64,000 nucleotides of DNA from Spiroplasma endosymbiont of Lasioglossum villosulum (GTDB taxonomy: Bacteria; Bacillota_I; Bacilli_A; Mycoplasmatales; VBWQ01), in contig NZ_OZ026539.1 in NCBI RefSeq assembly GCF_964020195.1, positions 500,299 to 564,298 of the forward strand, written 5' to 3'. Each line of letters begins with the position of its first letter. Positions within the stretch are counted from its first letter, which is position 1. Position numbers and translations under genes: made by a program. The notes under the pieces are model-generated. The model ran no database searches. It had not been told where the DNA came from and saw only the letters and a list, made by a program, of their open reading frames with translations. Shown piece by piece: positions 34,586-48,618 of this stretch.

Positions 34586-34808
34586 ACTTATAAAATTTAA
34601 AAAGGAAAAAACTATTTTTTAAATAAAAATAAGTTTTAGGGGGTTGATAAATATGATTTTAGAAGATTTAGAACCAATGACTGATCAAGAGTGTCAGGCA
34701 GTTAGTGGTGGTTTTGCTCAATTTTAATGGGTGCCGTGTTAGCGGGGATAGCAATTCCTGTTATTAAAAATTTATGAAATAGTGTTTCAGGAAGTATTAA
34801 GTTACCAG
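34578..34808 (+). repeat. 231-bp direct repeat, copy 1 (double-glycine peptide module)
   Basis: Nearly identical to 44671-44902, 10.1 kb away. It runs from the stop region of the Nif3 gene through an upstream A/T tract, ribosome site and the peptide coding sequence to TTACCAG. Roughly a dozen differences, including one missing base in this copy. Confidence 0.85.
34653..34727 (+). CDS. Double-glycine leader peptide, truncated by a frameshift, 24 aa
   Basis: Reads MILEDLEPMTDQECQAVSGG then FAQF and a stop. The pattern of an acidic/hydrophobic leader ending V-S-G-G matches the cleavage site used by C39 peptidases on bacteriocin precursors (hydrophobic residue at -4, Gly-Gly at -2/-1). AGGGGG lies 8-13 bases before the ATG. 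Compared with the copy at 44746 a T is missing in the run after CAA, so the frame ends and the mature part continues in the overlapping ORF starting at 34727 (TAATG). The leader is intact while the core is out of frame. Confidence 0.65.
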   Translation: MILEDLEPMTDQECQAVSGGFAQF

Positions 34809-35221
34809 GTGGTATTGAAAGTCAAAAAAAATATTTTAAAATTATTATTCCCGAAGATGTTTTTAATTTAGTTAATGCATATTATCAAAATTTAACGCAA
34901 GAACATTTTTATTTATTATTATTAAATAATCAAAATAAATTAATTCATCAAAATTTATTATATAAGGGTACTAATGATACTATGAAAATTGATGTTAAAG
35001 ATATGTTGCATCTGACACTTATTCATAAATCAAGTAAAGTAATTTGTATTCATAATCATCCTAGTGGTAATAGTGAACCCTCACTATCTGATTTATATAT
35101 CATCGAAGAAATTAAAAAAAATTTTCAGGTTTTTAATATTACCTTAGTTGATCATATTATTATTGGCAAAGGTAATTATTTTAGTATAAATTTAAATAAA
35201 AAATATTATAAGCTTAAATAA
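34727..35221 (+). CDS. Chimeric ORF: bacteriocin-like core fused to a RadC/JAB domain, 164 aa
   Basis: The first 26 codons (MGAVLAGIAIPVIKNLWNSV then SGSIKLPG) are the hydrophobic core of the double-glycine peptide, shifted out of its leader. Without a break the frame continues with KYFKIIIPEDVFNLVNAYYQ, the start of the RadC metal domain: the JAMM motif is ICIHNHPSGNSEPSLSD with ITLVDHIIIGKGNYFSI closing it. The N-terminal helix-hairpin-helix part of normal RadC (about 100 residues) is missing. Either the duplicated peptide module recombined into a radC gene, or the remnant is translated as a truncated RadC. No good ribosome site before 34727 except coupling to the leader peptide stop. Confidence 0.7.
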
Positions 35222-40155: not shown

Positions 40156-40411
40156 TAAAATAAATGAATTTGTAACTATTTAATTATATTAAAACACTTA
40201 AAATATAAAAAAATAATTATCAAAATGATAATATGTAAATCATGTAAAATTAATCTAGATTATTAAGTAACGTTTTTCTTTTATTTTGTTTATAGTTATA
40301 TTTTATATAATTATGTGTTATTATATTGTTGTATTAATCAATAATTAACGATTACAACTTTTATAGTCTTTTAAGATTATTTTGGTTTCACGCAAAGGAT
40401 TGTTTTTTATT

Positions 40412-41353
40412 ATGCAACAAGATTTTTATATTAAAAAGGTTTTTTATGCTTGTTATGTAAAAAATATAGTGTTACCTATTTCATTTTTGAGTAATATTGG
40501 AAATAAAAAAGGTAAATGTTATGTTGGTAATAAGCAAAAATTGAGAAATAGTACTGTTCGTGCAAAAAATAACTTAATTCAAAAAGCATTGCATAATTTT
40601 TATGATAGTAAAATAATGAGTTTTGTTACTTTAACCTATAAAGATAATATGCAAGATATTAAAAAAGCTAAGAAAGATATTGGCTTATTTTTTATTAAAT
40701 TAAAAAAATGATGAAATGACCCTAAACGTTTAAAATATTTAGGTGAATTAAAGTATTTTTATGTTTATGAATATCAATCTCGTGGAGCAGTTCATTTTCA
40801 TATAGTTTTTAATAGAAAAGTACATAAAAGTATGTTATTAGAATGATGAACTCATGGTTTTAGTGATTTAAAAGTAGTTAAAAAAGGTACAAATGAATTT
40901 GTTATTAAATATTTAGGTAAATATGTTACAAAAGCATTTGATGATATTAAGTCTTTAAATCAAGTGGATGTAGGCATTAAAGCATATGCTTTTAGTCGTA
41001 ATTGTAAAAATCCTATTATAATTCGTGGTATTAAAAAAATAACAATTCAAGATATAATTAAAGCAAGTTTTAATGCAACAAATGTATTTTATTTTAAAAC
41101 TCCAAAAGATAGTGATGGTAATACTATTTTAACTGGTGGTATTATTGAAAGTACTGTTGTAAATGATTACTTTAAGGATTATGAAGATTATGAACGATAT
41201 ATATATTTAAGTGCTTTATCGCATAAACACTATTTACGGACTAGTGAAATTGGTTATTTAATTCATAAAGATAAAGATGTTTCAACTTGGTTAGATAAAA
41301 TTTTTGGTGATAAAGTTGAAAAAATAATTTTTGGTAATAAAAAGTTAAATTAA
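40412..41353 (+). CDS. HUH-type replication initiator (plectrovirus-like Rep), 313 aa
   Basis: Rolling-circle Rep. The motif YEYQSRGAVHFHIVF supplies the HUH metal site (His-Phe-His); the downstream IKYLGKYVTKAFDD holds the nucleophile tyrosine candidate, and MSFVTLTYKDN is the N-terminal motif. These match the replication proteins of spiroplasma plectroviruses. C-terminal third is helical and charged. Start: ATG 40412; an upstream TTG frame would add 10 residues, and AAAGGA lies 16 bases before the ATG, so the start is not certain. No capsid, assembly or other plectrovirus genes follow. The gene is intact and may still act on the nearby stem-loop. Confidence 0.82.
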
Positions 41354-41372
41354 ATTTTAATTACAATACTTG

Positions 41373-41396
41373 TATATATATATATATATATATATA
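41373..41396. repeat. (TA)12 dinucleotide repeat
   Basis: Uninterrupted 24-bp alternating TA tract, palindromic and easily melted, 20 bases after the Rep stop and 10 bases before the TTTGCGTGG stem-loop. Confidence 0.9.
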
Positions 41397-41405
41397 ATGT
41401 TATTT

Positions 41406-41441
41406 GTAATTATACTTTTATTTGCGTGGAAGTATAATTAC
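41406..41441 (+). other. Candidate rolling-circle origin stem-loop
   Basis: Perfect 12-bp stem GTAATTATACTT / AAGTATAATTAC with a 12-base loop TTATTTGCGTGG. The exposed motif TTTGCGTGG is rare in this AT-rich sequence yet recurs three more times (two inverted) around the Rep gene. A conserved sequence exposed in a hairpin loop beside an HUH Rep is the usual form of a nicking origin. Structure is seen; function is inferred. Confidence 0.6.
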
Positions 41442-41878
41442 GTTTTTATTTGTTTTTTTGTTTTTTGTGTTATTATGTATGTAGATATTTATTTGCTTAA
41501 TAATTGCATTAATGTAACGAGTTAATAGTAGTAAAGGGTTATTGAGAGTAAATATTTAACTATTACAATTGTTTATACAATTTCACGCAAAGAATAATTA
41601 GATATTTACTTTTTTTTGGATTTGATTAATTTTTAATTATTCAAATTGTATTAAACATAATAGTTTTATTAAAGACAATTTAATATTTTTACGTAATGTA
41701 TTTATATATATTTATTATGATTTTTTTTAAAAGAAAGAGAGGCATACCTCGGTTCGGTTAAATTAAAATTCAGGTTAAGTATGTAGGGTAATTTATTCTT
41801 TTTCCTATTTGCGTGGGAATTTTTTTATATTTATTAAAAATAAAAAAAAAATAAAAAGGTTAATAAAGCAATATTAAA

Positions 41879-41969
41879 GGTTGGTTCCAACCAGAACCTT
41901 GGTTGGTGGAACCATGGGCTTTAAAGCCCATTGGGGTAGGTTGCGAAGCAACTAGGGGCAACGTCCCTA
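41879..41969 (+). other. GC-rich cluster of hairpins (candidate single-strand origin or structured RNA)
   Basis: In about 90 bases, in order: GGTTGGTTCCAACC and the longer GGTTCC ... GGAACC pairing (41883-41913); the perfect 18-bp palindrome ATGGGCTTTAAAGCCCAT (41914-41931); GTTGCGAAGCAAC (41940-41952) whose core GCGAAGC is known as an unusually stable DNA mini-hairpin; and AGGG ... CCCT (41955-41969). GC content is around twice that of the surroundings. Lies directly upstream of the surface-protein gene. Confidence 0.7.
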
Positions 41970-42012
41970 AGAACTTGAAAAACTTAAGAGTATTAAGGAG
42001 ATGTTTTAATAT

Positions 42013-43103
42013 ATGGCAAAAGAGGTTAAAAAAGGAAAAATTATTACTGCTATTGTTGGTGGTACTACTTTAGTTGGTGGAGCCACTGCTGGTAGTATTG
42101 CAGCAACTGTTGAAACAGAAGAAGTAGAAAACGAAGAAAAAAATATAATAATATAAAAGGTTTTAAAAATATATCTGGTAAAAATAATTTTATTAGTAGT
42201 ATTTCTAGTTTAACAGTAGATGATAAAGGTGTGGTATGAGCAACAACGACTACAAATGGATTGTATAAATTAGAAAATGGTGAACAATTTACCAAAATTA
42301 ACGTCTCTGGTATTGATGAACGCGGTAATTTTTATAGTTTATTAAGTTTAAATGGAACATTTTATTTAGGAATATTAGAATATATGGGAACCGGCTTTTT
42401 ATATAAGAGTAATGCCATCAAAGATAATGTAATAGAATTTAATAAAGTTCCTGGTCGTGGGTGAAAAAGGAATTATGGATTTATTACAAATTTTATAAAC
42501 ATTAGCAATGGTAATATAATTTATGCTGCAGCTAATACAAGTAAGACTACGAGTTATTTATACTATACTACTGATAATTGAGCAACATGTTCTTGATTTA
42601 GTAACATTGAAACTTTAATTACAAGTTTAGCAGTATCTAGTAATCAAACAGTTTTTGTACCAACAAAAACTGTTGAAAACAAAGGTAAATTATATAAATC
42701 AACAAGTGGAACAACATTTATTGAGGTACCTGGTTGAAAAGAAAATAATGGTGAAGTTCATAGTTTATTAACTGTTAATGATATAGTTTATATAGGAACA
42801 AAAACTGGTATTGGTCAAGGTAAATTATTTAAAATTACTAATGATGGTATTGTTCATGAGATTACAGAATGAGGCAAAGATGCTGGTGATATTGGTGAGA
42901 TTCATAGTTTATTAAATATTAAGGGAATTATTTATGTAGGAACAAAAACTGGTGTTGGTCAAGGTAAAATATTTAAAAGTAAAAATGATAATAATTTTGA
43001 ATTAATACCTAACTGGGATATAAGTAATGGTGAAGTTTTAAATCTGTTTAATATTAATAATGATTTATATGTAAGGACAAAAGTTTCAAAACAAATTAGT
43101 TAG
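42013..43103 (+). pseudogene. Surface protein with propeller-like repeats, frameshifted after the anchor
   Basis: Begins MAKEVKKGKIITAIVGGTTL then a Gly/Ala-rich membrane segment and an acidic linker (ETEEVENEEKN). At an A7 run (42137-42143) the frame stops; A8 would continue into about 320 residues of extracellular repeats with the pattern of beta-propeller blades: SSLTVDDKGVVWATTTTNGL, VHSLLTVNDIVYIGTKTGIG and IHSLLNIKGIIYVGTKTGVG. AAGGAG ribosome site. Similar in plan to the intact gene at 43372. It may be an adhesin or sensor. The run right after the anchor is a good place for an on/off slippage switch, but a dead gene or a base-count error are equally possible. Confidence 0.6.
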
Positions 43104-43371
43104 TTATTTAGATGAATATAAAATTATTTTTTTTATATCTAGTTGAATTTAGACTTTGATTAGATATTTTTAAAGTTATATTAAATAATTTTACTAAACA
43201 AAATAATTAATATTTATTAAATTATCTATACTGTAATTGACAAATATATACTATGATATATAATTTTGTATATCATAAAAATGATATTATTAATTTAAAT
43301 TAAGAAACAAATTATTAAAATTTTAACAATATTATAAAATTATAAATGAAGATTAAAGGAGATATATAATT

Positions 43372-44553
43372 ATGAATTTTAAAAAAATATTATCTGTAAT
43401 TACACCATTAAGTATTTCAACTTCAACAATTGGAGCGGGGATTATATATTATGATAATTTTGGTCAAGAAAAATTAATTACTAATATAAGCGAAATTAAT
43501 TTGCAAAATATCATCGTTGAACCTAATTTAGGACAAGTTAATAGTGGAAAAAATGAAATTCCAACAAAAGCGGCCTTATTAATAAACATTAAAGAAGCAA
43601 ATCCAGAAGCTAGTTTATTAACTATTAATGATTTTGATATTGTAAAAGAAGATAAAAATAACGTTACAATTAAAGGCAAAGGTAATTATATAGGAGAAGT
43701 TAATTTATATTACACCGTTACTAACTTTATTAATAAAAAACTAACAAATGAGAAAATTTATGCTTTAGCAATTGATTCACGAAATAATATTTTTAGAACG
43801 CAAGAAGATAAAGTTTATAAGCTTACTGTTACAGGAATAGAAACTTTAATGGATGGATTGGATTCAGGTAAAACTGCTAGAAATATAATAGTTGATGCAG
43901 AAGATAATGTTTATGTTGGAACTGATAGTGGTGTTGTTTACAAAAGTGATGGTAAAAATAGATTTGTAAAAATTTCATTGCCAGATTCAACAAATTGAAT
44001 ATGAGCTTTAACAGTTAATAAAAAAACCGGCATTGTTTATGCTGGTAACGATGATGGTGTATATAGCATTGATAAAAATGGTAATGTTAATCATATGTTA
44101 GGAACACATGATTATATTAATAGTTTAGCAGTAGGTGAAGATGGTTCTGTTTATGCGGGTGCTGATAATCGTGGTAAAATTTATAAAAGTTATGATGGTA
44201 TAAGTGAATTTAAATTAATTAAACAACGAGATGATGCTGGATCAATGAAAAGTTTAGTAATAGATAGTACAAATAATATTTTTGCTGGCTCTGATAATGG
44301 TAGTATGTATGCTAAAATGTTAGAAACAGGCCATGAAATTAAACGTTTAGTAATAGATAAAGAAGGTAGTTTATTTATTGGTGTTGATTCAAATGAAGTT
44401 TATAAAAAAGTAAAAGACTCATCTATATTTTATAAAATGATAGGAATAGAAAATGGTTGAGAACATATTCTTGCTTTAACAACTGATCAAGGTGATAATT
44501 TATATGCAGCAGGAACTGAAGGGTACTTATATATAAGCAAAAATTTTAATTAA
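43372..44553 (+). CDS. Exported surface protein with propeller-like repeats, 393 aa
   Basis: N-terminal signal or anchor (FKKILSVITPLSISTSTIGA). Residues about 30-110 form a small domain with a Lys/Asn-rich strand pattern (NLGQVNSGKNEIPTKAALLI, VTIKGKGNYIGEVNLYYTV), as in repeats of spiroplasma lipoproteins. From 115 on there are seven or so blade-like units with GTDSGVVYKSDGK, GNDDGVYSIDKNG and GADNRGKIYKSYDG, which look like WD/PQQ-type propeller strands ending in a Lys-Ser. AAAGGAG ribosome site. No Cys lipobox. Probably faces the host. Not assigned to a named family. Confidence 0.65.
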
Positions 44554-44670: not shown

Positions 44671-44902
44671 TTTTTTAAACTTATAAAATTTAAAAAGGAA
44701 AAAACTATTTTTTAAATAAAAATAAGTTTTAGGAGGTTGATAAATATGATTTTAGAAGATTTAGAACCAATGACTGATCAAGAGTGTCAGGCAGTTAGTG
44801 GTAATTTTCCTCAATTTTTGATGGGTGCCATGTTAGCAGGAATATCAATTCCTGTTATTAAAAATTTATGAAATAGTGTTTCAGGAAGTATTAAGTTACC
44901 AG
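44671..44902 (+). repeat. 232-bp direct repeat, copy 2 (double-glycine peptide module)
   Basis: Counterpart of 34578-34808, one base longer. Same upstream tract, ribosome site and peptide coding sequence. It carries AGGAGG where copy 1 has AGGGGG. Confidence 0.85.
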
Positions 44903-44988
44903 ATAGTTTTTATTGTAAATCGTTATATAAAAATAAAAAATATTTATTAATTAATATAAAATTACATATTTTTTTCTTAAAAGAATAA
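44746..44988 (+). CDS. Bacteriocin-like peptide, leader mutated at the double glycine, 80 aa
   Basis: Reads MILEDLEPMTDQECQAVSGN followed by FPQFLMGAMLAGISIPVIKN and LWNSVSGSIKLP, then about 28 residues of probably unrelated tail (YKNKKYLLINIKLHIFFL). The leader is that of copy 1, but the second Gly of the cleavage site is Asn. The core is a hydrophobic amphipathic stretch with Gly and Pro as in class II bacteriocins, with one Trp. AGGAGG lies 8 bases before the ATG. So this copy has the open core and a damaged cleavage site; copy 1 has the reverse. After the duplication block the C-terminal part looks replaced. Confidence 0.6.
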
Positions 44989-46775: not shown

Positions 46776-46927
46776 TTGTTTAAAATATAAAAAATATGCT
46801 ACAATATACAGGCTTAATTTAATGAAAATAAGCAACACATTTGTGAATTCATTGCCTAGTGCTTTTTAATTAAAAAGTGGCCAATGTTAGAAATAAATGG
46901 AAGAAAAACAAATTAGAAGGAGACAAT
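46776..46927 (+). promoter_or_regulatory. rpsB promoter and structured leader
   Basis: TTGTTT (46776-46781), 18-base spacer, TACAAT (46800-46805). The 120-base leader includes a hairpin with CATTG/CAATG ends and a CTTTTT/AAAAAG core (about 46850-46887). Leaders of ribosomal protein operons are often autoregulatory. 46526-46775 upstream shows no gene. Confidence 0.55.
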
Positions 46928-47704
46928 ATGTCAGTTGTAACACGTGAACAACTCCTTGAAGCGGGAGTTCAGTTTGGTCACCAAACTAAAAGATGAGATC
47001 CAAAGATGCGTAAATATATTTTTGGTCAAAGAAATGGTATTCATATTATTGATTTACAAAAATCAATGCGTAAATTAGATGAAGCTTGTCACTTTGTTAA
47101 AGAAACTAGTGAAAATGGTGGTAAAGTTTTATTTGTAGGTACAAAAAAACAAGCCAAAGAAGCTGTGCAAGAACTTGCAATTAGTTGTAATTCACCTTAT
47201 GTAACAGAACGTTGATTAGGTGGTAATTTAACTAATTTTAAAACTATTAAATCAAGTATTAAAAAGTTAATTGATATTGAAAATAAAGAAAAAAGTGGAG
47301 AAATTAAACTTTTAACAAAAAAAGAGCAAATGTTAGTAATTAAAGAAAAAGCACGTTTAGAACGTAACCTTGGTGGTATTAGAAATATGTATAAATTACC
47401 AGAAGCTATTTTTGTTACTGATACTATTACTAATAAAATTGCTGTCGAAGAAGCAGTTAAACTTGGTATCAAAATTATTGCGATTTGTGATAGTAATTCA
47501 AATCCAGATAATATTGATTATATTATTCCTGGTAATGATGATGCTACAAAATCAATTACTTTAATTACAAAGAAAATTGCTGAAGCTATTAATGAAGGAC
47601 AAAGTGTAAAACCAGTTATTGATAAAAAAGAAATAGTAGTAGAAGAAACTACTAGTCTTGATGAAAATAAAACTGAAAATGGAATTGAAAAAAATAAAGA
47701 ATAA
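46928..47704 (+). CDS. rpsB: 30S ribosomal protein S2, 258 aa
   Basis: Clear S2: [103 protein letters not shown] and [21 protein letters not shown]-terminal acidic tail longer than usual. AGAAGGAG ribosome site. Together with tsf, a membrane protein and pyrH it forms a cluster; S2 binds the body of the 30S subunit. Confidence 0.97.
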
Positions 47705-47719
47705 AGGAGAATAGTTTAT

Positions 47720-48598
47720 ATGTCAGAAGTTAAAGTAGATGTTAAATTATTGAAAAAATTAAGAGATACAACCGATTTACCAATTACTGATTGTAAAGAA
47801 GCTTTGATAGAAAAAAATAATATTTTTGAAGCAGCACTTTCCCTATTAAAAATTAAAGGTTTAGCAAAAGCAGAGAAAAAAAGTATTAATAAAGCCACTG
47901 AAGGGGTTACTAAAGTTGTTATTAGTGGTAATAATGCAATTATTGCTGAATTAAATTGTCAAACTGAACAAGTTGCTGATTTAGAAGATTTTAATGATTT
48001 ATTTACTAAGATTTTAGAAACAATTTTAAAACATCAACCTAAAACTATTGAAGAAGCTTTAATGTTAAAAGCTGATGGAAGTAGTGAAAGTTTAAATGAT
48101 GAGATAAGATTTGCTATCGCTAAATTAGGTGAAAATATTGTTTTAAATCGTTTTCAATATTTAAGTAAAAATAGTGATGAAGTTTTTGGTTCATATATCC
48201 ATGGTGGTGGTAAATATAGTGGTTTAGTTATTATCAAAGGTGTTGATAAGGAAAGTGATATTCCAAATAATGTTGCTATGCAATTAGTATCAGCAGATGC
48301 TAAATACATTGATATTGCTCACATACCCGCAACAGTTCGTGATAAAGAATTATCAATTATTAGTGAAAAAACAAAAGAAGAAGAAAAATTGAAAGCAAAA
48401 AAACGTCCTGATAATATTCTTGAAAATATTATAAGAGGTCGTTTTGAAAAAGTATTATCTGAATTAACTATTGTTGATCAACTTTATATTAAAGATAATA
48501 CAATTAAGGTTAAAGAATATTTAACTAAAAATCATGCTACAATTATAGCTATGATACGTTATCAATTAGGTGAAAAAATTGATAGTTCTGCCAAATAA
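47720..48598 (+). CDS. tsf: Elongation factor Ts, 292 aa
   Basis: Nucleotide exchange factor for EF-Tu. N-terminal UBA-like helical module LLKKLRDTTDLPITDCKEAL, then GLAKAEKKSINKATEGV and QTEQVADLEDFNDLF. The dimer core shows GSYIHGGGKYSGLVIIKGVD. 15 bases after rpsB with AAAGGAG. Intact. Confidence 0.95.
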   Translation: MSEVKVDVKLLKKLRDTTDLPITDCKEALIEKNNIFEAALSLLKIKGLAKAEKKSINKATEGVTKVVISGNNAIIAELNCQTEQVADLEDFNDLFTKILETILKHQPKTIEEALMLKADGSSESLNDEIRFAIAKLGENIVLNRFQYLSKNSDEVFGSYIHGGGKYSGLVIIKGVDKESDIPNNVAMQLVSADAKYIDIAHIPATVRDKELSIISEKTKEEEKLKAKKRPDNILENIIRGRFEKVLSELTIVDQLYIKDNTIKVKEYLTKNHATIIAMIRYQLGEKIDSSAK

Positions 48599-48618
48599 AC
48601 ATTTAGGAGGTAAATAAA

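Follow-up and report, generated by a model that had tools for sequence, protein, structure and literature searches.

The window, by which we mean the whole stretch of 64,000 nucleotides that was analysed, is part of a single contig of 1,512,716 bases and was translated with table 4 (TGA = Trp), under which alone its long ORFs emerge. It contains a gene for a putative surface protein whose two parts lie in different frames (Table 1). ATG 42013 opens an anchor frame of 47 codons that ends at the TAA at 42154-42156, and the exposed, propeller-like part is read in another frame, open over 335 codons (42096-43100) without an internal stop up to the TAG at 43101-43103; in DNA so AT-rich, an open frame of this length is unlikely to result from chance alone. 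The two frames part at an A7 run in the linker, shortly 5' of the TAA, where run length decides the frame, and the gene is broken relative to its own domains. The first-pass annotation had described a break just after the anchor, lying between it and the exposed part, and the frame coordinates agree with both the break and its position. The possibility that the exposed frame has its own start, at GTG 42231, was considered and is not favoured, because only a weak Shine-Dalgarno-like sequence, as judged by eye, is present and overlaps the GTG.

Table 1. Features at the locus of the interrupted gene, in window coordinates.
Feature	Position	Strand	Basis
Upstream block (left flank of the element), similar to the sequence upstream of L093 and L069; likely the old promoter	40202..40261	+	Flank comparison
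Rep-encoding mobile element, 1,717 bases	40262..41978	+	Further copies, common ends
Rep ORF inside the element, 323 aa	40382..41353	+	PF23343, E 1.1e-20; DNA match to phage Rep
Right-end hairpin cluster of the element	41836..41978	+	DNA fold, z -3.41; dispersed matches
Start region with Shine-Dalgarno-like AAGGAG at 41995-42000	41979..42012	+	Sequence; right-flank match to L069
Anchor frame, 47 aa, ends at TAA	42013..42156	+	ORF reading; relatives known
Exposed, propeller-like frame, stop TAG 43101-43103	42096..43103	+	ORF reading; relatives by sequence matches
A7 run within the linker	42137..42143	+	Sequence
Adjoining propeller-like ORF of 393 aa, intact; consensus promoter of its own at 43237-43264	43372..44553	+	ORF reading, Pfam, promoter scan

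The anchor peptide consists of a basic start, a hydrophobic stretch and an acidic linker, in this order. Because the hydrophobic stretch is only moderate (best 19-residue Kyte-Doolittle mean 1.34), we regard it as a likely rather than a proven membrane anchor. The exposed part matched other repeat genes of the genus, the best match besides itself having an E value of 3e-20. The 290-aa window protein had no Pfam hit, and weak Pfam hits to beta-propellers fell on the neighbouring gene and on one related gene. A structure model of the exposed part was all-beta, of low confidence (pLDDT 52.8) and at most consistent with a propeller, and the fold matches of this model were weak (TM ~0.25). Since the part has no Pfam hit of its own, a poor model and weak fold matches, its label is limited here to propeller-like.

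Two short ORFs elsewhere in the window, at 44737-44988 and 34590-35221, start with MILEDLEPMTDQECQAVSG, which by eye we take to resemble a double-glycine bacteriocin leader. Near 34.6 kb, the copy continues into a RadC-like domain (PF04002) that is read in a different frame; the version of this ORF in G005, one of the related genomes, is longer and open.

The start region of the interrupted gene is bordered directly upstream by the Rep-encoding element, whose ends are sharp and common to its copies. Three other full-length copies were detected in the same genome (91-92% identity), and a copy in G005 covered 1,571 positions at 88% identity. The DNA of the Rep ORF matched the Rep of Spiroplasma phages SVTS2 and SVGII3, and this match and the reading of TGA as tryptophan both suggest that the window comes from a Spiroplasma. 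This Rep, which is of plectrovirus type, is the only ORF of the element, four full-length copies of which are present in this genome. Judging from copy flanks that were examined in part, it appears to be a mobile element that is driven by Rep and does not depend on phage coat genes. The hairpin cluster at its right end also stands alone at many places in the genus, with ~75% identity.

Comparison of the two flanks with related anchor-type genes suggests that the element split the upstream region of the gene. With the left boundary placed at 40262, as taken from the ends common to the other element copies, none of 3876 random window stretches scored as well as the left flank against the upstream region of L093, and 35/3876 did so against that of L069. 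The right flank matched the start region of L069 (0/3876 random stretches as good) and, weakly, that of L093 (183/3876). When the flanks were joined, they aligned end to end with the upstream regions of both genes. The corresponding counts for L077, L140 and L148 were 713, 46 and 173 of 3876 for the left flank and 15, 1575 and 293 of 3876 for the right flank. If the boundary was set at 40247 instead, the left-flank test was not significant (233/1000 random stretches as good for L069 and 46/1000 for L093). We infer that the split block is probably the promoter of the gene; a promoter scan of 40202-40261 found no strong sigma-70 site, and the core motif of the block was neither rarer nor commoner in the window than expected by chance. 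As the element lies between the block and the start region, the likely promoter would be separated from the gene. A further disabling lesion, which the first-pass annotation had named as a sign of decay instead of switching, was therefore found in this element, the silencing itself being presumed. Read-through transcription into the gene is possible, because the Rep gene has the same orientation.

Eleven anchor-type genes outside the genome G001 were examined, namely that of the window and ten others. Three copies from G001 (L079, L141 and L143) had been dropped before the count because of apparent homopolymer errors in that genome, and three further matches (L144, L145 and L146) were dropped because by eye they look like membrane-transport proteins. 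The anchors of L077 (E 4e-6) and L078 (E 9e-11) are clearly related to that of the window gene; the similarity is weak for six genes (E 0.001-0.006) and weaker still for L147 (E 0.14) and L148 (E 0.16). All of the genes except one were interrupted (10/11). The interruption was located at the linker A-run in the window gene, L093, L092 and L142 (4/11 genes, in three gene groups) and between the start and the anchor or inside the anchor in L069, L077 and L078, the frame change of L077 being at a short AA and not at a long run. Nonsense changes were found soon after the linker in L091 and L140, and in L092 as well. L147 is interrupted by a later stop, and L148 is open across the 1,500 bases read. 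Further lesions are present in L092, in L142 and in L091, which is in frame at the linker, and L093 has none ahead of the stop common to its group; the linker breaks of L092 and L093 may be one common event. The linker run length differs between strains in two cases, with A9 in L091 vs A8 in L092 and L093, and A8 in L140 vs A7 in L142. In 600-base comparisons, the pairs among L091-L093 differed by 2-5 synonymous and 7-11 nonsynonymous changes and by one or two stops; these numbers, which are small and include bases past the shared stop, are compatible with relaxed selection. As for the G001 copies, L079 is frameshifted both early and at the linker, and L143 at the linker; L141 keeps its frame through the linker, after which it passes into unrelated sequence. 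The anchors of L077 and L078 closely resemble the segment 42013-42120 of the window, yet their exposed parts are DUF285 and not propeller-like. Such similar anchors on quite different exposed parts suggest that anchor and exposed domains have been shuffled between genes.

We further searched for other alleles of the gene in a set of six genomes of the genus, the window's own among them. No close copy was detected in the five other genomes. The gene was also not found upstream of its syntenic neighbour in G001, G002, G004 and G005, and the G003 contig ends ~3.8 kb upstream. Viral contigs and plasmids held no allele, nor did a wider collection of genome contigs, where one weak match was to a Flavobacteriales contig. 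An order-wide search gave matches in 8/198 genomes, the window's own included and the others distant, and a search of Rfam gave one match, far below the gathering score.

We consider it fairly probable that the locus carries a strain-specific gene in the process of being lost, coding for a propeller-like protein that is anchored in the membrane and exposed at the surface, and that it represents recent decay with two lesions. The break is real, and the gene probably an ordinary one in decay. The element would have separated the gene from its upstream block, which is probably the promoter, as supported by the flank comparison; an ordinary slip in the linker A-run would have ended the frame; and the gene as read would yield at most a short membrane peptide. 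Because the frame is broken after the anchor and the element separates the likely promoter, the gene looks lost rather than switched. The state of the anchor-type genes, 10/11 of which are interrupted by linker A-runs, early frameshifts or nonsense changes, argues for the same reading, as do the ordinary nature of the A7 run and the failure to find a close copy in the five other genomes. On the other side, no other stop interrupts the exposed frame, transcription from the Rep gene might read through, and the scan did not pick out the upstream block as a strong promoter.

The exposed protein might also be toggled by slipped-strand changes at the A-run of the linker, the assembly having captured its OFF state. 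This phase variation, which the first-pass annotation had favoured from the position of the tract between anchor and exposed part, appears rather unlikely to us. Its premise, that surface genes of Mollicutes can be switched at such a tract, is sound: the Vaa gene of Mycoplasma hominis is ON with eight A and OFF with seven or nine A, with a switching rate of ~10^-3 to 10^-4 (PMC524362; PMC2831843). In addition to this precedent and to the position of the tract, the strain differences in linker run length (L091 vs L092 and L093; L140 vs L142) speak for a switch, as do the three further genes of two groups that are out of frame at the linker, which a shared switch would predict. The linker pattern fits such a switch but would also be expected if dying genes break at their weakest spot. 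A search of the open literature returned, among the matches listed, no paper on a phase-switched surface gene of Spiroplasma.

The tract itself is ordinary for the window and no longer than tracts in many intact ORFs. Within the 53 ORFs that reach 150 aa or more, there are 51 sense A7 runs by position, or 55 if overlapping ORFs are each counted, compared with 45.5 in codon shuffles; runs of at least eight are fewer than in the shuffles (13 observed vs ~37). Runs of at least seven A (68 in total) are spread over 33 of the 48 non-overlapping ORFs, and 17/68 of them fall within the first 60 codons (25% vs ~18% expected by length). Run lengths were compared with two relatives, G005 (30.9 kb of alignment) and G003 (24.2 kb), the two comparisons covering largely the same window runs. 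In the region 46800-48600, G001, G003 and G005 are ~99% identical to the window, and G002 and G004 ~79%. The coding A7/T7 runs agreed in 42/42 cases with G005 and in 40/40 with G003, and coding runs of at least eight in 15/15 and 9/10 cases, respectively. Noncoding runs of seven agreed in 13/16 cases with G005 and in 8/9 with G003 (21/25 together), whereas noncoding runs of eight agreed in only 2/5 and 1/4 (6/9 differ). Runs of seven are thus mostly stable between these genomes, which argues against a switch at the A7 run. For another gene, cited in PMC2831843, the change from T8 to T7 is faster than that from T7 to T8, and on this basis a run of seven may be nearly locked. The mobile element inserted upstream and the additional lesions of L091, L092 and L142 also count against switching, and no ON allele of the gene was found in the genomes and contigs searched; where related genes have another run length, they carry further lesions and do not represent an intact second state. 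Given the element upstream, the ordinary tract, the relatives that are broken otherwise and the lack of an ON allele, the proposal that this gene is phase-variable is not supported.

A broader version of this proposal is that the lysine- and glutamate-rich linker after the anchor serves as a class-wide slippage switch of the exposed repertoire, with the window gene as one member in the OFF state. Such a linker occurs in several surface-protein groups of the clade, whose exposed parts are propeller-like, DUF285 or of at least two other kinds. We hold this broader version to be distinctly unlikely.

Homopolymers are the usual site of sequencing and assembly errors, and an error in the A-run, with the gene in frame in the organism, has to be weighed as well. 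G001 seems to show such errors, as 5/39 of its coding A/T runs of at least six differ from the window. Three of these five runs lie inside ORF 46877-47704, which, by eye, we take to be ribosomal protein S2. The homopolymers of G001 are one base shorter inside conserved ORFs at positions equivalent to 47143, 47624, 47688, 47876 and 63942 of the window, and these single-base shortenings are probably assembly errors. For the window itself, an error is very unlikely, because all 82/82 comparisons of its coding A7/T7 runs with G005 and G003 agree.

Least likely of all, and hardly to be expected, is a recoding event in which -1 ribosomal frameshifting or RNA polymerase slippage on the A-run would give some full-length protein: the codons GAA AAA AAT do hold an in-phase A AAA AAT from which a -1 slip would enter the exposed frame, but this heptamer is common (31 in 48 ORFs), the downstream segment 42144-42243 was no more structured as RNA than expected by chance (z 0.19), and by eye no strong Shine-Dalgarno-like stimulator is present upstream of the run.

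If switching did occur, the gene would count as a Spiroplasma contingency gene for a surface protein. As a gene in decay, it offers an example of how ordinary slips at homopolymers, together with a Rep-type mobile element, turn over anchored surface genes in these bacteria, and it cautions that in an AT-rich genome a homopolymer frame break alone is no proof of a switch.

Among known systems, Vaa of M. hominis (PMC524362) resembles the window gene as a surface protein of a Mollicute whose gene has a short A-run in its coding sequence, close to the 5' end, in which seven A are OFF. This likeness concerns tract and position, and the window gene differs in that no ON allele was found and that a mobile element separates it from its likely promoter. 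The DUF285 surface proteins of Mollicutes (PF03382) are linked to the window gene through L077 and L078, which join a closely similar anchor to DUF285, whereas the exposed part of the window gene is propeller-like. Although only lightly damaged, the window gene shares with the homopolymer and mobile-element pseudogenes of host-associated bacteria a gene that is open except for one break of the frame, an adjoining element, absence from close relatives and many broken relatives.
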